Assembly: GCF_009831625.1 (NCBI RefSeq)
Contig: NZ_WUUS01000015.1
Location: 1-40,877, forward strand
Length of the DNA: 40,877 nucleotides
Direction of reading: 5' to 3'
Source: Halobaculum saliterrae
Lineage (GTDB): Archaea; Halobacteriota; Halobacteria; Halobacteriales; Haloferacaceae
In this document: positions 7,943 to 40,877 of the stretch, in pieces
Numbering within the stretch: the stretch's first letter is position 1
Layout of the letters: every line of letters starts with the position of its first letter
Notes under the pieces: model-generated
The model's database searches: none
The model's input: only the letters and a program-made list of their open reading frames with translations
Told to the model about the DNA's origin: nothing
Position numbers and translations under genes: made by a program

Positions 7943-10777
7943 TTATCGCGTGAGGAGCCTCCTAAGGACGTAGTGAAGGATGCCCCCGTGTTCGATATAG
8001 GTCACGGCGGCCGGCGTACCGACCTGTGCCGTGACCGGGAACTCGACAGTCGACCCATCCGCACGCTCGGCGATAACGGTCAGTTTGTCCATCACGTCGA
8101 GTCCGTCATCGAGGCCGTGGATCGTGAAAACCTCCGACCCATCCAAACCGAGAGACTCCCACGAGTCGCCATCATCGAACTGCAGGGGGAGTACACCCAT
8201 GCCGACGAGGTTGTCGCGGTAGATGCGCTCGTAACTCTCGGCGATGGTTGCGCGAACACCGAGCAGGTCCGTCCCCTTCGCCGCCCAGTCCCGGCTGGAG
8301 CCGGTCCCGAACTCCTCGCCCGCCATCACGACGAGCGGGACTCCCTCTTCGCGGTAGCGCTGGCTGGCTTCGAAGACGGTCGTCTGCTCGTCGGTCGGGT
8401 GGTGGATCGTATAGCCACCCTCGACGTCGTCGAGCATCTCGTTCTCGATGCGGACGTTGGCGAACGTCCCCCGCATCATCACCTCGTGGTTGCCCCGACG
8501 CGCGCCGTACGTGTTGAACTCGTGTGGCTCGACACCGTGATCGAGCAGCCATTGACCCGCGGGGAGGTCGGGACCGAACGGGCCGGCTGGACTGATATGG
8601 TCGGTTGTAACGGTGTCCCCGAGCGTCAGCAGACAGCGTGCGTCCTCGATATCGGCGACGCCGGGTTTCTCGAGGGGGAAGTCCTGGAAGAACGGCGGTT
8701 CTCGGATGTATGTCGAGTCGTCGTCCCACTCGTAGACGTCACCACTTGGCGCGTCGAGAGCAGCCCACCGCTCGTCGCCCTCGAATACGGAGGCATACTT
8801 CTCCTCGAACATCTCGGGAGAGACGTTCTCGTGGATTGCTGCCTGCACGTCCGCTGTGTCGGGCCAGATGTCCGCCAGATACACCGGGTCACCTTCCTCG
8901 TCGGTGCCTAGCGGTTCGTTCTCGAGGTCGATGTCCATTCGGCCTGCGAGCCCGTAGGCGACGACGAGCGGCGGGCTCGCGAGGTAGTTTGCGCGGATCT
9001 TCGGGTGGATACGCGCTTCGAAGTTCCGGTTCCCGGAGAGGACGCTCGTCGTCCAGAGGTCGTGGTCGTCGATCGCCTGCTCGATGGGGTCGGGAAGCGG
9101 TCCGGCGTTACCGATGCAGGTGGTACAGCCGTAGCCGACGACGGCGTACCCGAGCTCTTCGAGATACGGAAGCAGCCCAGATTCTTCGAGATACTGCGTG
9201 ACGACGCGGCTACCCGGTGCGAGGCTCGTCTTGACGTACGGCGGGACGTCCAACCCTTTCTCGACGGCGTTCTGGGCGAGCAGTCCAGCAGCGATCATCA
9301 CCGACGGGTTCGACGTGTTCGTACAGCTCGTGATGGCGCTGACGAGGACATCTCCGTGTCCAATTTCGACCGTTTCACCGTCGAGATCGACTTCGACGCG
9401 TTTGGTTAACGGGTACAATTCCGATTCGGGTTCGACCTGAACGCCGCCGTCGGACCGGTGGTTCGACGAGGCATCGGTCGCTCCGCTCTCGATACCGCCG
9501 TCGGTCTCCGCACCAGCTGCACCACCCTCACCGAGCCACCGTTGCAAGGCGTCCTCGTCGACATCGTCGAGGTCGTCCTCGAACTCCCCGTGGAGAAGTC
9601 CCCGGAAGCTTTGTTTCACGTCTCCCATCGGAATCCGGTCCTGTGGCCGCTTGTGGCCGGCCAGACTCGGTTCGACAGTCGAGAGGTCGAACTCGACGAC
9701 CTCGGTGTATTCCGGTTCCTGTTCTCCGAACAGCCCTTGCGCTTCGAGGTACTCGCGAACGAGGTCGACGTGGTCGGGGTCACGCCCGGTGAGTTCGAGA
9801 TACTCGAGCGTCTGCTCGTCGACCGGGAACATACTGATCGTCGAGCCCTGTTCGGGCGCCATATTGGCGATCGTTGCCCGGTCGGGCACGGTGAGGTTCT
9901 GTACACCGGGGCCGAAGAACTCCACGAACCGGTCGACGACGCCGACCTCGCGGAGCCGTTCGGTAATGTGGAGCACGAGATCTGTCGCCGTCGCGCCTTC
10001 GGGTAATGTGCCTTCGAGACGGACGCCGACGACCTCGGGGAGTTTCATCGTGACCGGCTGACCGAGCATTGCCGCTTCCGCTTCGATGCCGCCGACGCCC
10101 CACCCGACCACACCGATGCCACCGATCATCGGGGTGTGGCTGTCCGTGCCGACGAGCGTGTCCGGCAGGAGCCAGTTCTCGCCGTTTTGCTCGCGGGCGT
10201 GGACGACCCGACCCAGATGCTCGAGATTCACCTGATGGACAATGCCCGTGCCCGGTGGGACGACGTTGAAGTTCTCGAAGGCGTTCTGCGCCCACTTGAT
10301 CGCGCGATACCTTTCGGCGTTTCGCTCGTACTCCAGTTCGACGTTCTTCTCGTAGGCGTCCTCGGAGTCGAAGTAGTCGACCTGGACGCTGTGGTCGATT
10401 ACGAGATCAATCGGAATCTCCGGTTCGACCAGGGTCGGGTCCCGTTCTTTGCGGTCGACTTCGGATCGAAGGGCCGCCAGGTCGACGACTGCGGGCACAC
10501 CGGTGAGATCCTGCAGGACGACTCGTGATGGAGAGAACGGAACCTCCGCGTCCGGTACGTCTGGCTCCCAGCCAGCAGCATTCCTGACGTCCGCCGCAGT
10601 GACAGTTTCGCCGTCGGCGTTCCGGAGCACTGACTCGAGAAGGATACGGATACTCACCGGGAGCGTATCGAGGTCACAGAGCCCCCGTTCTTCGAGTGCT
10701 CGAAGATCGGCCATCTTGTACGTCGTCCCGTCGACGTCGAGCTCGCGGACGGCATCGAACGGAAGTGTATCAGTCAT
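7943..10777 (-). CDS. acn: Aconitate hydratase (AcnA/IRP type)
   Basis: A 944-residue aconitase, which interconverts citrate and isocitrate in the TCA cycle. The [4Fe-4S] ligands are visible as Cys485 (ITSCTNTSNPSVM), Cys551 and Cys554 (GYGCTTCIGNAGP). Substrate-site motifs are DSHTPMIGGIGVVGWGVGGIEAE near the N terminus and GEEFGTGSSRDWAAKG in the C-terminal swivel domain. An acidic Gly/Ala/Asp-rich insert of about 40 residues (AAGAETDGGIESGATDAS region) sits before the first cluster cysteine. ATG 10777 (MTDTLPFDAVRELDVDG) is chosen over one 33 bp upstream because aconitase homology starts there. It stands alone between metal genes; its iron-sulfur cluster is a known target of copper poisoning. 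Confidence 0.97.
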   Translation of the reverse strand: MTDTLPFDAVRELDVDGTTYKMADLRALEERGLCDLDTLPVSIRILLESVLRNADGETVTAADVRNAAGWEPDVPDAEVPFSPSRVVLQDLTGVPAVVDLAALRSEVDRKERDPTLVEPEIPIDLVIDHSVQVDYFDSEDAYEKNVELEYERNAERYRAIKWAQNAFENFNVVPPGTGIVHQVNLEHLGRVVHAREQNGENWLLPDTLVGTDSHTPMIGGIGVVGWGVGGIEAEAAMLGQPVTMKLPEVVGVRLEGTLPEGATATDLVLHITERLREVGVVDRFVEFFGPGVQNLTVPDRATIANMAPEQGSTISMFPVDEQTLEYLELTGRDPDHVDLVREYLEAQGLFGEQEPEYTEVVEFDLSTVEPSLAGHKRPQDRIPMGDVKQSFRGLLHGEFEDDLDDVDEDALQRWLGEGGAAGAETDGGIESGATDASSNHRSDGGVQVEPESELYPLTKRVEVDLDGETVEIGHGDVLVSAITSCTNTSNPSVMIAAGLLAQNAVEKGLDVPPYVKTSLAPGSRVVTQYLEESGLLPYLEELGYAVVGYGCTTCIGNAGPLPDPIEQAIDDHDLWTTSVLSGNRNFEARIHPKIRANYLASPPLVVAYGLAGRMDIDLENEPLGTDEEGDPVYLADIWPDTADVQAAIHENVSPEMFEEKYASVFEGDERWAALDAPSGDVYEWDDDSTYIREPPFFQDFPLEKPGVADIEDARCLLTLGDTVTTDHISPAGPFGPDLPAGQWLLDHGVEPHEFNTYGARRGNHEVMMRGTFANVRIENEMLDDVEGGYTIHHPTDEQTTVFEASQRYREEGVPLVVMAGEEFGTGSSRDWAAKGTDLLGVRATIAESYERIYRDNLVGMGVLPLQFDDGDSWESLGLDGSEVFTIHGLDDGLDVMDKLTVIAERADGSTVEFPVTAQVGTPAAVTYIEHGGILHYVLRRLLTR

Positions 10778-10848
10778 AGTATCTACACCTAGGATTGGCA
10801 GTCGTATCAACCTCTCCCCGAATCCGATTCGACGAGAATCGAGATTTG

Positions 10849-35498: not shown

Positions 35499-36734
35499 TT
35501 ACTGCCGTACGCTATCGATCTCTTCTAGCGCCTCAGTAGCGACATCACCGAGTTCTCCCGCCTCGATGTGGGAGTACCGCTCTCGAACCATTTCTTCAGA
35601 ATTATCCAGATACCGGGCCGCCACCGTGTACCCGAACGCGCGGACGAGGACCTCACCCATCCCACGACGGCCGCCGTGCGGAGCAAGATAGTCGTGTTTC
35701 GGGTGGTCGATATCGATCTCGGCAGCCTCTGAGAGTCGCTGAAGAATCGACCGTGCGCCGTCCGTCGTGATCGACGGCGGCCGAATGTCCTCATCGAGTG
35801 CCAGCAGCAGGTCGCGAGTGTACTCCGCACGGCGTTCAGTGATTGCTTCTGGGCGTTCCCCTCGTTCGGCTAGCTCTTCCCGGACGAGCTCCGCGAGCGT
35901 CCGTTGGTCGAACGTCGGAAACACCGGCCACCGCTCCGTCGGCGGGTCCATCAGCTGCCGATAGCTTCGCAGCGGTGAAATCACCGGATCGGGGAGACTG
36001 GCAGCGTCCCACTGCTGTTTCTTTCGGTAAACGTCCATACTCCCGTCGTCGAGGGACAGATCCTCCCAGCGGACGCCACGCCGGCGCGGATCGTTTGGGT
36101 CCCGAAGGAGTTCCCCAACGCGGACAGCTGTGTACGCGAGGACGAACACCAGAGCCCGGTCACGAGCCGCCTTCAGCGCCGCGTAGCGTCCTCGCTGCTT
36201 GTCGAGGGGGTCAGTATCCTCCGGGAGTGTCGTGTACGCCTCGACGGCGTCGCGGGCCCGTTCGTCGACGTGGCGGGTGAGGGCGTGGCGCTGTTCGGAC
36301 GTCCAGGCCTGTTGGTCTCCGGGCTTTCGGCCGTCGTCCTCCGGCAGTGGCGCCATCGCACTCGCTCGCTGCGCGTAATGCGCTTCGAGATATCCCTCGT
36401 TGACGCACCAGCCACACCACGCAGAGATATAGCGGTAATAGGTTTGTACCGTGTTCTGCTTGAGTCCCCGATCTCCACCGAGATGCCGGGCGTACTCCCG
36501 GAACACGCGTTCGTCGAGATCGTCGAAGGTCGGCTCCCGGTCGACGTCGTCAGGGACGATCCCGGTCCAGTCGTCGTCGCCGCGGTCGCCGGCGGCCCAC
36601 TCGGCGAACCGCTCGAGCTCGCGTGCAGCGTTCCGTCGATAGTTTCCGCCGTCGCCACCGCGGCCTTTCCCCTTGTCTTGGAGGTAGCGCTCGAAGCTGT
36701 CGTCGAGCGGCGTCGAAAGCGCTCGATCAGGCAT
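35499..36734 (-). CDS. Tyrosine recombinase (XerC/D-like integrase)
   Basis: A 411-residue site-specific recombinase from ATG 36734 (an ATG at 36749 adds five residues). The N-terminal SAM-like domain (30-120) carries FREYARHLGGDRGLKQNTVQTYYRYISAWCGWC. The catalytic domain has Arg205 (AYTAVRVGELL), a Lys in YRKKQQW, His353-x-x-Arg356 (PHGGRRGMGEVLVRAF) and nucleophile Tyr387 (VRERYSHIEAGEL). The usual LGH/LDH before the Tyr reads LDNSEE, so the second His is Asn. It integrates or resolves DNA, possibly resolving plasmid dimers. No tRNA or att duplication is visible beside it. It faces the parA region across an AT-rich gap. Confidence 0.92.
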   Translation of the reverse strand: MPDRALSTPLDDSFERYLQDKGKGRGGDGGNYRRNAARELERFAEWAAGDRGDDDWTGIVPDDVDREPTFDDLDERVFREYARHLGGDRGLKQNTVQTYYRYISAWCGWCVNEGYLEAHYAQRASAMAPLPEDDGRKPGDQQAWTSEQRHALTRHVDERARDAVEAYTTLPEDTDPLDKQRGRYAALKAARDRALVFVLAYTAVRVGELLRDPNDPRRRGVRWEDLSLDDGSMDVYRKKQQWDAASLPDPVISPLRSYRQLMDPPTERWPVFPTFDQRTLAELVREELAERGERPEAITERRAEYTRDLLLALDEDIRPPSITTDGARSILQRLSEAAEIDIDHPKHDYLAPHGGRRGMGEVLVRAFGYTVAARYLDNSEEMVRERYSHIEAGELGDVATEALEEIDSVRQ

Positions 36735-37084
36735 CCACCGGCCCTCCACCGTCCTGCCGGCCCGGTCTCGGTGCCTCTACCCCGGGGGAAGCGCCGTCGT
36801 GAGGCGGTTGCAGCATTCGTGCTTCACCGACGGCGGCGGGGTACTTCAAAGTGGTCGTGATTATTGGAGTAATCATAACCAAGCACAGAAGTATGCGTAT
36901 TGGCGGAATATGGGGAGTAGAGCCCTCTACAACCAGATATTGGCGTTTATAGAACCCCATATATCGTATATCGCTATATGCAATTCGGTCCCTGACCCAA
37001 TAGAGAGCTGAGAACTTTGCCGGCTTAGATTATTTTGGAATTCTGAACAGAATTTCTATAGAGATTGAATGGATACGACAGGCT
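36735..37084. other. 350-bp AT-rich gap with dyads upstream of the recombinase
   Basis: No gene is supported. TGATTA/TAATCA (36858-36875, six-base spacer) and GTAGAGCCCTCTAC (36917-36930, 6-bp arms) are inverted repeats. A run of ATATATCG-like repeats (about 36959-36979) is very AT-rich for a haloarchaeon. These could be promoter and operator sites for the recombinase, a recombinase core site or part of an origin. The base composition falls sharply compared with both sides. Confidence 0.4.
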
Positions 37085-38201: not shown

Positions 38202-38609
38202 CTATTCATGCCCAAGATTTGAGAGACGTGCCTGTATTTCCTCAGCATCCGCATCAGAGAGCGCTTCTACACCGAACTGGACAAGTAGCGGGTAGAAGTG
38301 GCGGTTCTTCTTGAACTCGTCCTGGCCCGCCTTCCGGAGCTTTAGCTGGGATTCGAGGTAGGTATCCTCCATCTCGTCGAGGACATCGTCGGGAATGTAG
38401 ATCGTTCGCCCGTTCCATTCATCCTTGATGTTCGTCTTCGTTTCGCTCGTTTCGATCGTTTCGCTCGTTGAAGTCGATTCAGTCGTTTCGGTCGATGAAC
38501 TGGTTTCCACCGTTTCACTCACCTCACTCGTTTCGCCGGAATCGACCTCGTCGTCCTCCTCTTCGTAGTTGCCCTCGATGCCGGAAGCATCACCCCAGCC
38601 ATCGCTCAT
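38202..38609 (-). CDS. ParA-coupled small acidic protein (candidate centromere-binding partner)
   Basis: A 135-residue protein, second gene of the parA operon: ATG 38609 overlaps the parA TGA by four bases and GGAGG precedes it. Residues about 24-58 are Ser/Glu/Thr triplet repeats (SETSEVSETVETSSSTETTE and on), encoded by phased 9-bp units. The C-terminal domain (WNGRTIYIPDDVLDEMEDTYLESQLKLRKAGQDEFKKNRHFYPLLVQFGVEALS) has a short strand then helices, as in ribbon-helix-helix or haloarchaeal DUF8160-type proteins. Position and size match the ParB-type adaptor of type Ib partition systems. DNA binding is inferred. Confidence 0.7.
   Translation of the reverse strand: MSDGWGDASGIEGNYEEEDDEVDSGETSEVSETVETSSSTETTESTSTSETIETSETKTNIKDEWNGRTIYIPDDVLDEMEDTYLESQLKLRKAGQDEFKKNRHFYPLLVQFGVEALSDADAEEIQARLSNLGHE
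38438..38536. repeat. 9-bp repeat array A, inside the ParA-partner gene
   Basis: Eleven units of consensus TCGTTTCGC in perfect 9-bp register: starts at 38438, 38447, 38456, 38465, 38474, 38483, 38492, 38501, 38510, 38519 and 38528. Units 1-3, 6 and 11 are closest to consensus. On the minus strand they encode SET/IET/VET triplets. The same 9-bp unit recurs outside coding DNA upstream of parA (arrays B-D). Confidence 0.75.
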
Positions 38610-39424
38610 GCTTCCACCTCCTCAGGTGCGGTCTTCTCAAACGTCTCGCCGAACAGGTCGGCGATCTCGTTGAACAGGTCACGTGCATCCTCAACACGCT
38701 GGTTCTCCTTACCGAAGCCGAAGACGGACACTCCTTTGCCAATCGACTGGGAAAGGTCGGTCCGCTTCGGTATCTCGAACACTGGGAGGGAGTACGCCGA
38801 CTTGATCTCCTCGATGGTGTCGCTGTGCTCGGCGTTCTGCTCGACACGGTTACAGACAATCGCGAGTCGATTGATGTCTCCGTACGCCTGTTCGAGGGAG
38901 CTCAGCTGTTTCGCGAAAATCTGGAGGCTGTTGGCGTTGAGCTTCTCCGGAATGACAGGGATGACGACGTTGCCGGTCGCAACCAGGGCATTGTCGGTGA
39001 GGACGTTCAGGGATGGCGGCGTGTCGACGATGATATAGTCGTAGTCCTTGTCGAGCTCGTCGAGGGTCATCTCCAGTCGTTCCCGACTCTTCGGCGCCTC
39101 AAGCAGCGTCTGGATGTTCTTGTTGTTCGCGAGCTTCTCGCTCGCGGGGAGGATGTCGAATTCCTTGTGCTCGACGATTATGTCGTTCACCGACTCCATC
39201 TGGTCGAAGTCGAGGACGTCGAACAGCGTTGTGCGGTCGGTATCGTAGTACAGATCGTTGTAGCCAAGCGAGCAGGTGAGCCCCCCGTGGTAGTCGATAT
39301 CGACCAGGAGAACGTCGTAGCCCCGGGCAGCTAGCGCCCCGCCAGTGTGAATGACGTCAGTTGTTTTCCCTGCGCCTCCCTTCTGATTCGCCACGGTGAT
39401 TCGTGCGGTGTTGGTGTCGGTCAT
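38606..39424 (-). CDS. parA: ParA-family partition ATPase
   Basis: A 272-residue ParA/MinD-type ATPase. The deviant Walker A is KGGAGKTT (residues 15-22), Walker B is YIIVDTPPSLNVL, and the switch region is VIPVIPEKLNANSL. The motif normally VDxDPQGxxT reads VDIDYHGGLT (42-50), with Tyr-His for Pro-Gln. It segregates low-copy replicons by ATP-dependent patterning on DNA and needs a centromere and an adaptor. The adaptor candidate is the overlapping gene at 38202. It lacks an N-terminal helix-turn-helix, so it is a type Ib-like ParA, and the adaptor would repress the operon. The 9-bp arrays start six bases upstream of the ATG. Confidence 0.93.
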   Translation of the reverse strand: MTDTNTARITVANQKGGAGKTTDVIHTGGALAARGYDVLLVDIDYHGGLTCSLGYNDLYYDTDRTTLFDVLDFDQMESVNDIIVEHKEFDILPASEKLANNKNIQTLLEAPKSRERLEMTLDELDKDYDYIIVDTPPSLNVLTDNALVATGNVVIPVIPEKLNANSLQIFAKQLSSLEQAYGDINRLAIVCNRVEQNAEHSDTIEEIKSAYSLPVFEIPKRTDLSQSIGKGVSVFGFGKENQRVEDARDLFNEIADLFGETFEKTAPEEVEA

Positions 39425-39429
39425 TTCTT

Positions 39430-39492
39430 TCGTTTACCTCGTTGTGTTCGTTCCGTTCGTTTTGGTCGTTCTGCTCGTTTGGTTCGGTGAGG
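39430..39492. repeat. 9-bp repeat array B at the parA start
   Basis: Six units of TCGTTNNNN in strict 9-bp register start at 39430, 39439, 39448, 39457, 39466 and 39475. A degenerate seventh (TCGGTGAGG) is at 39484. The array begins six bases upstream of the parA ATG and overlaps its 5' region. It is a likely operator or centromere for the partition proteins. Confidence 0.8.
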
Positions 39493-39538
39493 GTGTTTCA
39501 CTCGGTGAGAGGAATACTACGATGTTAAAACCAATTGT

Positions 39539-39628
39539 TCGTTTCGCTCGTTGAGGCAAACACTATCGTTGCCATCAATGCATTCGTTCTATTCGTTACG
39601 TTCGTTTCACTCGTTCTGTTCATCGAGT
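39539..39628. repeat. 9-bp repeat array C, intergenic
   Basis: Ten 9-bp steps from 39539 to 39628. Good units are at 39539 (TCGTTTCGC), 39548, 39566, 39584, 39593, 39602 and 39611, with degenerate steps at 39557, 39575 and 39620 that hold the register. It lies between divergent parA and the HTH gene at 39846 and is separated from array B by 46 bp. Confidence 0.78.
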
Positions 39629-39657
39629 AGGAGCCGGCCAGCTCATCCTCAACCAGT

Positions 39658-39738
39658 TCGTTTCTCAGAATGCGTTCAATCCATTCATTTTTCTCGTTCT
39701 GTTCGTTTTGCTCGTTGAATTCGTTATAGTCGTTCCGC
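39658..39738. repeat. 9-bp repeat array D, intergenic
   Basis: Nine 9-bp steps. Units are at 39658, 39676, 39685, 39694, 39703, 39712, 39721 and 39730, with one lost step at 39667. The five units from 39694 on are perfect in TCGTT. It is followed by about 100 bp with no repeat before the HTH gene at 39846. Arrays B-D together fill most of the 421-bp gap 39425-39845. Confidence 0.78.
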
Positions 39739-39845
39739 GTGTTTTCACGGGGATCTGGACTCCCTTCGAAACAAGTGGGGAGATCGTGCTTCACGGCCAG
39801 TCGAGTAAGACTTTTAACTGTTACCGGATTATTGGTAACCACCAG

Positions 39846-40520
39846 ATGTATGAGGTGCTCGACGACACGGCGGCACAGACTATCCTCGCCATCGAGAGTG
39901 GTGACTCCATCCGCCGTGTCGCCCAACACCTCCACACGCCCTACGAGACAGTGAGACAGGCCGTCAATCGGCTTGAAGACGCAGGCTACGTTTCCTATGA
40001 CGACGGCCTCACTGTAGTCGACGAGCGCGTACACGACGCAGCGCTCGAGCTCGTCGCTGCCAGCGCCGGCGTCAGTCCACCCTCCATCGAGGAAACGTAC
40101 GTCATCCCACAGTTCAGTGACTGGCCGTTCGCGTTCACGCGGATCGACGCCGTCTACGTGTGGACTCAGGGCGGCTACCAGGTCGGTCGCGAGCCCGACA
40201 ACTATCCACTGTTCCTCGCTGTTCGTGAGCAGGACGTCGACGCCTGGGAGACATTTTTCGAGTGGTTCGACCTCCCGACCGCATTCGAACGACAGCCCCG
40301 AGACGAGTTGGACGGACCGCTGCAGATCGTCCTCGAGCCACACACGTCACTCGATATCGAGCACGTCGAAGGGTACCCGGTGATCCCGAGAGCAGAGACA
40401 ATCGAGTATATGCGCGAGAACTACGCCCAGTTCCAGTCGGGGCTGGCGATGCTCGACCGGATGTACGAGGACCTCGACCTCGGCGTCACGTATCGAGAGA
40501 CCGAACGGGCACAGTCATGA
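39846..40520 (+). CDS. AbiEi-like HTH antitoxin candidate
   Basis: A 224-residue protein from ATG 39846. The N-terminal winged helix (1-60: DDTAAQTILAIESGDSIRRVAQHLHTPYETVRQAVNRLEDAGYVSYDDGL) is followed by an alpha/beta domain (70-200) with YVIPQFSDWPFAFTRIDAVYVWTQGGYQVG and YPLFLAVREQDVDAWETFFEWFDLP. It overlaps the nucleotidyltransferase gene by four bases (ATGA at 40517-40520). HTH plus nucleotidyltransferase pairs are the AbiEi/AbiEii and MenA-type toxin-antitoxin arrangement. The first 46 codons of the longer frame, including repeat DNA, are not used. It probably represses its own operon. Confidence 0.8.
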   Translation: MYEVLDDTAAQTILAIESGDSIRRVAQHLHTPYETVRQAVNRLEDAGYVSYDDGLTVVDERVHDAALELVAASAGVSPPSIEETYVIPQFSDWPFAFTRIDAVYVWTQGGYQVGREPDNYPLFLAVREQDVDAWETFFEWFDLPTAFERQPRDELDGPLQIVLEPHTSLDIEHVEGYPVIPRAETIEYMRENYAQFQSGLAMLDRMYEDLDLGVTYRETERAQS

Positions 40521-40877
40521 GCTTCAACAACCGAAGTGACGCGCTCATCGAACTGATCGAGGAGCTCACCCAACAGGGTCACGAGTACGTTCTTGTTGGC
40601 GGCTACGCTGTCTCAGCGTTCAATGCTCGCTTCTCCACGGACCTCGATATCGTCGTCGCGCCGGACTCCAAGGCTGACTTCGTCGAGTTCCTCGAACAGC
40701 AGGGATTCGAGGAAACGGACAGTCACGCCAAGAAATGGTTCTACGACACCGAAGTAATCGAGTACGAGAAGCGGCTCACGCCGCAGCAGCCGATCGGCTT
40801 CGATCTCCTGGTAAACGGACTCGGGTGTCGCCAGACGGAGGCACAGTGGTCGTTCGACTACCTGTACGACCACAGCC
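40517..40877 (+). CDS. AbiEii/MenA-like nucleotidyltransferase toxin (cut by window end)
   Basis: An open frame from ATG 40517 runs off the right edge; about 120 residues are visible. It has an N-terminal helix (RSDALIELIEELTQQGHEYVLVGGYAVSAFNARFSTDLDIVV) containing the nucleotidyltransferase signature GG-Y-A-(x)n-STDLDIVV. Asp-x-Asp is the metal site. The following EFLEQQGFEETDSH, KKWFYDTEVIEYEKRL and IGFDLLVNGLG match the second strand pair with a further Asp. Family members transfer nucleotides to tRNA or other substrates and act as toxins or defence effectors. The start is set by the stop/start overlap with the HTH gene. Confidence 0.85.
   Translation, partial: MSFNNRSDALIELIEELTQQGHEYVLVGGYAVSAFNARFSTDLDIVVAPDSKADFVEFLEQQGFEETDSHAKKWFYDTEVIEYEKRLTPQQPIGFDLLVNGLGCRQTEAQWSFDYLYDHS

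Follow-up and report, generated by a model that had tools for sequence, protein, structure and literature searches.

A haloarchaeal parA operon with phased 9-bp repeat arrays, one of them written into its adaptor gene: a putative plasmid centromere

Introduction

In Bacillus subtilis a parS site sits within spo0J, as one 16-bp palindrome read by a helix-turn-helix (HTH) CTPase. The parH site of plasmid TP228, in turn, lies outside the adaptor gene. For the omega protein of plasmid pSM19035, full activation of ParA needs at least four contiguous 7-bp units, in arrays that overlap promoters (PMC9499535). ParG of TP228 carries a disordered tail and acts at both the centromere and the operator (PMC7308502). 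Among archaea, SegAB of Saccharolobus and AspA-ParB-ParA of pNOB8 perform ParA-type segregation, with an adaptor gene directly downstream of, and overlapping, its neighbor (PMC5120986). The same 2016 review names as an open question what characterizes archaeal centromeres, both chromosomal and plasmid-borne (PMC5120986).

How does the haloarchaeal locus described here compare? Like pSM19035 delta/omega, it combines a ParA that lacks a DNA-binding domain, a small adaptor and tandem, non-palindromic short direct repeats that extend into promoters, with four or more contiguous units in each array (PMC9499535). Unlike delta/omega, with its 7-bp heptad parS, the unit is 9 bp long, one array lies in frame within the adaptor gene, and the adaptor carries a long S/E/T linker and could not be matched by sequence to the solved ribbon-helix-helix partners. 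The predicted disordered N-terminal tail and C-terminal DNA-binding domain, and a putative centromere of short boxes with spacers, recall ParF-ParG-parH of TP228 (PMC7308502), but the haloarchaeal unit consists of a 5-bp core and a 4-bp spacer, unlike parH. With SegAB and the pNOB8 system the locus shares archaeal ParA-type segregation and the overlapping downstream adaptor gene; SegB and AspA are other proteins, set apart by their description, and no 9-bp arrays are described for their sites (PMC5120986). As in spo0J, the putative partition site lies inside the gene of its own candidate binder; unlike the Bacillus site, it is a phased in-frame array that encodes a linker. The openly licensed literature searched held no earlier description of 9-bp haloarchaeal centromeres, no described counterpart of the family-wide 9-bp rule and no experiments on any member of the adaptor family.

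The parA-adaptor operon and its repeat arrays

The window (the whole stretch of 40,877 nucleotides that was analysed) contains the following genes and sites near its right end:

38606 to 39424, minus strand: parA, a 272-residue ParA/MinD-type ATPase (Pfam AAA_31, E=7e-36; NCBIfam ParA_partition, E=1e-29, under its cut-off)
38202 to 38609, minus strand: the adaptor, a candidate centromere-binding protein of 135 residues, co-conserved with parA; its gene begins on the parA stop codon, with a 4-bp overlap
38438 to 38518 (exact units 38438 to 38491), plus strand: array A, in-frame 9-bp repeats within the adaptor gene, coding for a disordered S/E/T linker
39421 to 39492 (exact units 39430 to 39483), plus strand: array B, six contiguous exact units flanked by one-mismatch units; putative operator and centromere
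39523 to 39532, minus strand: putative TATA-like box of the parA operon, GGTTTTAACA, placed by eye between arrays B and C
39539 to 39619, plus strand: array C, seven exact units across nine register positions, directly upstream of the putative promoter; its position is kept in relatives
39685 to 39738 (exact units 39694 to 39738), plus strand: array D, five contiguous exact units and one with one mismatch; kept in most relatives
39846 to 40520, plus strand: divergent HTH gene adjoining the operon, with weak HTH_23/MarR matches; the same neighbor is found in pNG600

The Walker A motif of ParA (NQKGGAGKTT) begins near residue 13 and the AAA_31 match at residue 9, so the protein has no N-terminal HTH domain, as in type Ib systems. 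It matches the solved ParA, Soj, ParF and delta chains, and at least 43 haloarchaeal plasmids carry it at 87-98% identity. The small gene directly after parA encodes a partner that is not an HTH-type ParB, also as in type Ib. This adaptor belongs to no Pfam or NCBIfam family and has no ParB match; it matches PHROG families of unknown function (E about 1e-10). In the window clade its N-terminus is acidic and shows no obvious arginine finger, a point against the partition reading given below. Near-identical parA-adaptor pairs occur on at least 40 haloarchaeal plasmids, including pNG600 of Haloarcula marismortui. The window is also syntenic with pNG600 at 35499-36749 and 39846-40876, with an integrase downstream, the HTH gene paired with a nucleotidyltransferase upstream, and a metal P-type ATPase nearby.

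The 9-bp unit is TCGTTNNNN on the plus strand, the parA strand reading AACGANNNN, and the favored unit of the window is GCGAAACGA. The sequence-only reading had described four 9-bp blocks around the parA operon, and the pattern is far beyond chance: TCGTTN4TCGTT has 16 matches in the window, all on the plus strand between 38438 and 39734, where dinucleotide-preserving shuffles give 0.08. The blocks also lie where that reading had put them, with A in the adaptor gene, B at the parA start, and C and D in the 421-bp gap (39425-39845). Exact units start at 38438, 38447, 38456, 38465 and 38483 in block A, from 39430 to 39475 in B, at 39539, 39548, 39566, 39584, 39593, 39602 and 39611 in C, and from 39694 to 39730 in D; every block contains at least four contiguous ones. 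Two lone exact units are in register with A (38528) and D (39658). The earlier figure of about 35 units was slightly generous: exact units number 23 across the four blocks, and about 30 when in-register units with one mismatch are counted too. The strict 9-bp register holds within blocks but breaks between them, where the register differs. The distance between the parA ATG and the beginning of array B is 5 bp, and one unit with a single mismatch extends into the start codon itself. Short tandem direct repeats near the operon are a further trait of type Ib systems, and a centromere role is predicted for them here.

Conservation in close relatives

The sequence-only reading had named loss of the 9-bp register around homologous parA genes as one result that would refute it, and it came through this test. 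Among 37 judged loci with a close parA relative (L001-L036 and L048), all 37 keep AACGANNNN arrays at matching places: abutting parA, upstream and, where the locus extends that far, in the adaptor gene. Diverged parA operons likewise follow the 9-bp rule, with other repeat sequences, and the layout, not peculiar to this replicon, proved to be common to a large haloarchaeal family. The upstream blocks of relatives differ in number and length. In the block adjoining parA, conservation is 95% at core and 77% at spacer positions (32 loci), and the 602 array units of the window clade comprise 170 distinct 9-mers.

The arrays are all but confined to the operon. Three-unit arrays occur 11 times at the parA operon of the window's own genome (3.78 Mb) and once elsewhere; in six further genomes and plasmid pNG600 this operon likewise accounts for all of them but a single stray. 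Window-type operons sit on two separate contigs in each of two genomes (L003/L013 and L008/L014), and plasmid CP132293.1 has two whole par operons with arrays (L030 and L032), the second with an apparently disrupted ParA reading frame. Simple incompatibility would not predict two window-type operons in one genome or plasmid.

A family-wide 9-bp rule

With a model of the C-terminal domain, adaptor relatives were detected in 126 of 242 genomes of Halobacteria, spanning 52 of 73 genera; among 393 genomes of the phylum, all 38 matches fall in the same order and none outside it. In viral contigs, a search with the adaptor alignment and three other ParA queries gave no relatives, and one ParA query found four with the same operon. 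Operons taken from plasmid records and genome contigs fall into 40 clusters when their C-terminal domains are grouped at 75% identity. The adaptor genes span 97-201 codons and overlap or adjoin parA in all 40 clusters.

Across these clusters, identical 5-mer pairs in the linker number 304, 207 and 272 at spacings of 9, 18 and 27 bp, against 22-54 at other multiples of three. The upstream regions give 151 and 148 pairs at 9 and 18 bp, against 13 to 84 at other spacings apart from 5, 10 and 15 bp; the high values there come from a single locus, L136, and this period-5 signal was set aside. When periods of 6, 9 and 12 are compared, 36 of 40 clusters have their strongest phased linker run at period 9. 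Of 40 linkers, 29 exceed the 1% tail of a 325 kb, mostly haloarchaeal background, as do 10 of 40 upstream regions. The in-gene array is thus the most constant array of the family, and the upstream array is often short outside the window clade, since just those ten regions pass the strict test. Eleven clusters, among them L179 and L156, show little or no linker periodicity.

The unit itself changes between subfamilies. It is CACAGAACG in pNG200, pHTIA and pHSAL2, TCCGAACCG-like in L090, L093 and L094, TCAAAGANN in L037-L044, TCTAAGACN in L047 and L099, CATCAGATA in L183, TCAATGA in L186 and RGAACGNNN in L162; the window clade has AACGANNNN. An upstream region has more 7-mers in common with the linker of its own operon than with those of other operons, a value reached in 0 of 2000 permutations, and the sharing is clear in L183 (CATCAGATA), L186 (TCAATGA) and L162 (RGAACG). 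7-mers are shared on opposite strands too, and in L149, L169 and L161 the upstream units are opposite in orientation to those of the linker.

Could the arrays be operators only, through which the adaptor autoregulates its operon, with the partition site in some other place? In almost all subfamilies array B directly adjoins the start of parA, B and C flank the putative promoter, and the bacterial partners ParG and omega do bind operators (PMC9499535, PMC7308502). But the array that varies least sits in the adaptor gene, some 900 bp downstream, an unlikely place for an operator; other arrays of the window unit in the searched genomes are single strays; and known relatives use one kind of repeat as both operator and centromere (PMC9499535). 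We therefore regard a purely regulatory role as improbable, although it is the strongest of the competing explanations. Array A, for its part, is the best candidate for the core centromere, because its distance from the promoter is too great for an operator and no other array is as constant across the family.

Selection on DNA within the coding array

Why would a repeat array lie in the linker of the adaptor? The arrangement fits because a 9-bp unit spans exactly three codons and disordered linkers accept a wide choice of residues. In 34 adaptor linkers, 233 AACGA cores are found where the protein sequence and operon codon usage predict 44.8, and the maximum in 500 simulations is 59. The Glu codon before Thr is GAA 175 times and GAG 7 times in the linker, against 342 GAA and 856 GAG elsewhere; meanwhile the residues themselves vary (SET, NET, SKT, NKT). 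Synonymous resampling of the 40 clusters gives 438 expected 9-bp-phased 5-mer pairs in the linker, where 783 are found, and 109 at control periods, where 103 are found. The synonymous codons of the linker are constrained to keep the repeat, and therefore selection acts on the DNA.

These counts bear on the proposal that the in-gene array is a by-product of replication slippage, or of selection for an S/E/T-rich linker, with no role in binding. Disordered linkers do tolerate repeats, and some linkers without periodicity exist. A by-product, however, would not explain why the cores stay while the spacers vary, why the synonymous bias toward the core is strong in the linker only with no excess at control periods, or why the unit of the linker recurs upstream, outside the gene; moreover, the linkers are more periodic than background sequence. 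Both slippage and protein-only selection are accordingly unlikely, and we give them very little weight.

The predicted reader of the repeat

Two further features concern the protein that would read the arrays:

38205 to 38435, minus strand: C-terminal domain of the adaptor, residues 59-135, modelled by AlphaFold2 as a strand, two helices and a third helix (mean pLDDT 83)
38394 to 38420, minus strand: codons of the predicted DNA-reading strand EWNGRTIYI, residues 64-72, which covaries with the repeat unit across the family

In the domain model, helices at 16-35 and 43-57 precede the third helix; the full-length model is poorer than that of the domain alone (pLDDT 55). This predicted strand-helix-helix order suggests that the domain forms a ribbon-helix-helix dimer. 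Foldseek searches with the domain model found nothing significant in the PDB or among viral models, and there was no significant profile match, including in a comparison with five bacterial ParA partners. Very weak matches to the ribbon-helix-helix proteins SvtR (E=0.86) and VapB26 (E=2.1) were seen. Homology to omega or ParG is not supported, as the adaptor has no PDB sequence match to either and no Pfam family.

The repeat sequence tracks the predicted beta-strand of the adaptor and not its helices. With helices and GC content removed, the similarity of units follows that of strands (partial r 0.24 for linker units and 0.38 for upstream units, each p about 0.001). Given the strand, the helices explain little (0.11, p 0.05, and 0.06, p 0.25, respectively). 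This covariation gives the ribbon-helix-helix proposal a line of support separate from the structure model and, together with the constraint on synonymous sites, speaks indirectly for binding by the adaptor.

Tandem repeats of the iteron kind beside plasmid maintenance genes are a familiar layout of replication origins, and the arrays could in principle be iterons read by a replication initiator. No replication gene was recognised beside the operon, however, either in the window or in the stretch of pNG600 examined; the arrays accompany the parA-adaptor operon through many contexts; and an independent Rep protein would not produce a unit that changes with the strand of the adaptor. An origin function is hence more doubtful still than a by-product.

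A natural chimera separates strand from helices. In L149 (G111:C6:20400-24000) the strand DWNGRTIYL and the GAAACG unit are both window-like, and the helices are nearest to those of L141, L045 and L037; this locus thus joins a window-type strand and unit to the helices of another clade. Since its upstream units are inverted, the target would appear to be DNA rather than RNA. Control at the RNA level, with the adaptor or an antisense RNA binding mRNA repeats at the parA start and in the adaptor message, is the least credible explanation of all: array B follows the putative TATA box and may be transcribed, and array A is in the message, but the opposed orientation of upstream and linker units in several subfamilies (L149, L169, L161) and the position of arrays C and D upstream of the putative promoter favor double-stranded DNA.

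A model for partition

The locus is, with good probability, a haloarchaea-specific plasmid partition module of type Ib-like organization, in which each 9-bp unit is one binding site for a ribbon-helix-helix-like adaptor and the arrays serve as centromere and, beside parA, also as operator. ParA would be the nucleoid-bound ATPase, which the adaptor, as in type Ib systems, would stimulate when it binds the repeats and stabilizes the plasmid. An adaptor dimer would read one 9-bp unit with the beta-strands of its C-terminal domains, and its long disordered N-terminal tail may contact ParA. Arrays of at least four contiguous units would load several adaptor dimers side by side, yielding the partition complex, and the array touching the parA start may repress the operon as well, doubling as operator. 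We propose, by analogy with omega and ParG, the line-up of adaptors on the 9-bp units and the operator role of the units adjacent to parA. The data show the arrays, their conservation, selection on the DNA of the coding array and the covariation of unit and strand, from which we infer DNA binding, repression, partition and the fold.

As the array lies within the linker of its predicted reader, site and reader would travel as one cassette. It is somewhat more plausible than the opposite that, in this haloarchaea-wide family, the centromere is self-encoded and evolvable: the partition site would be written in frame, by synonymous codons, into the disordered linker of the reader, and strand-unit pairs would be swapped as matched sets, as in L149, creating new plasmid compatibility groups. 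For roughly half of the Halobacteria genomes sampled, the family would point to predicted plasmid centromeres, and it would give a sequence-based handle on haloarchaeal plasmid compatibility. Its matched protein-site pairs are directly testable, including the natural specificity swap in L149, and it illustrates clearly how a non-coding DNA code can be laid over coding sequence via a disordered linker.

Additional observations

At 7943-10810 the window has a 955-codon open reading frame whose start resembles aconitase, on what is apparently a plasmid contig.

A conserved GTCTGAC(G) motif lies directly upstream of a TATA-like box in 24 of 40 clusters, against a background of about 0.05 per 450 bp; it is absent from the window clade. 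The sites are upstream of parA, mostly at -43 to -62 from the start codon (for example in L037, L089-L099, L149 and L162), and are possibly a shared regulatory element.

The window's own genome holds two more parA loci of interest. On a 6.3 kb contig (L101, G000:C19), a different parA and an unrelated partner adjoin a copy of the HTH gene of the window, with 9-bp-like ATGTAGATT repeats around this parA, as if par cassettes had been exchanged. At the other (L102, G000:C2:399885-403511), a third parA is accompanied by a partner in which 9-bp TGTTCGGCC-like repeats encode the N-terminus, AEQAEQAEQEEQIEQIEQAE, and TACCTTAGC repeats lie upstream; the 9-bp in-frame principle may thus extend to this unrelated partner family.
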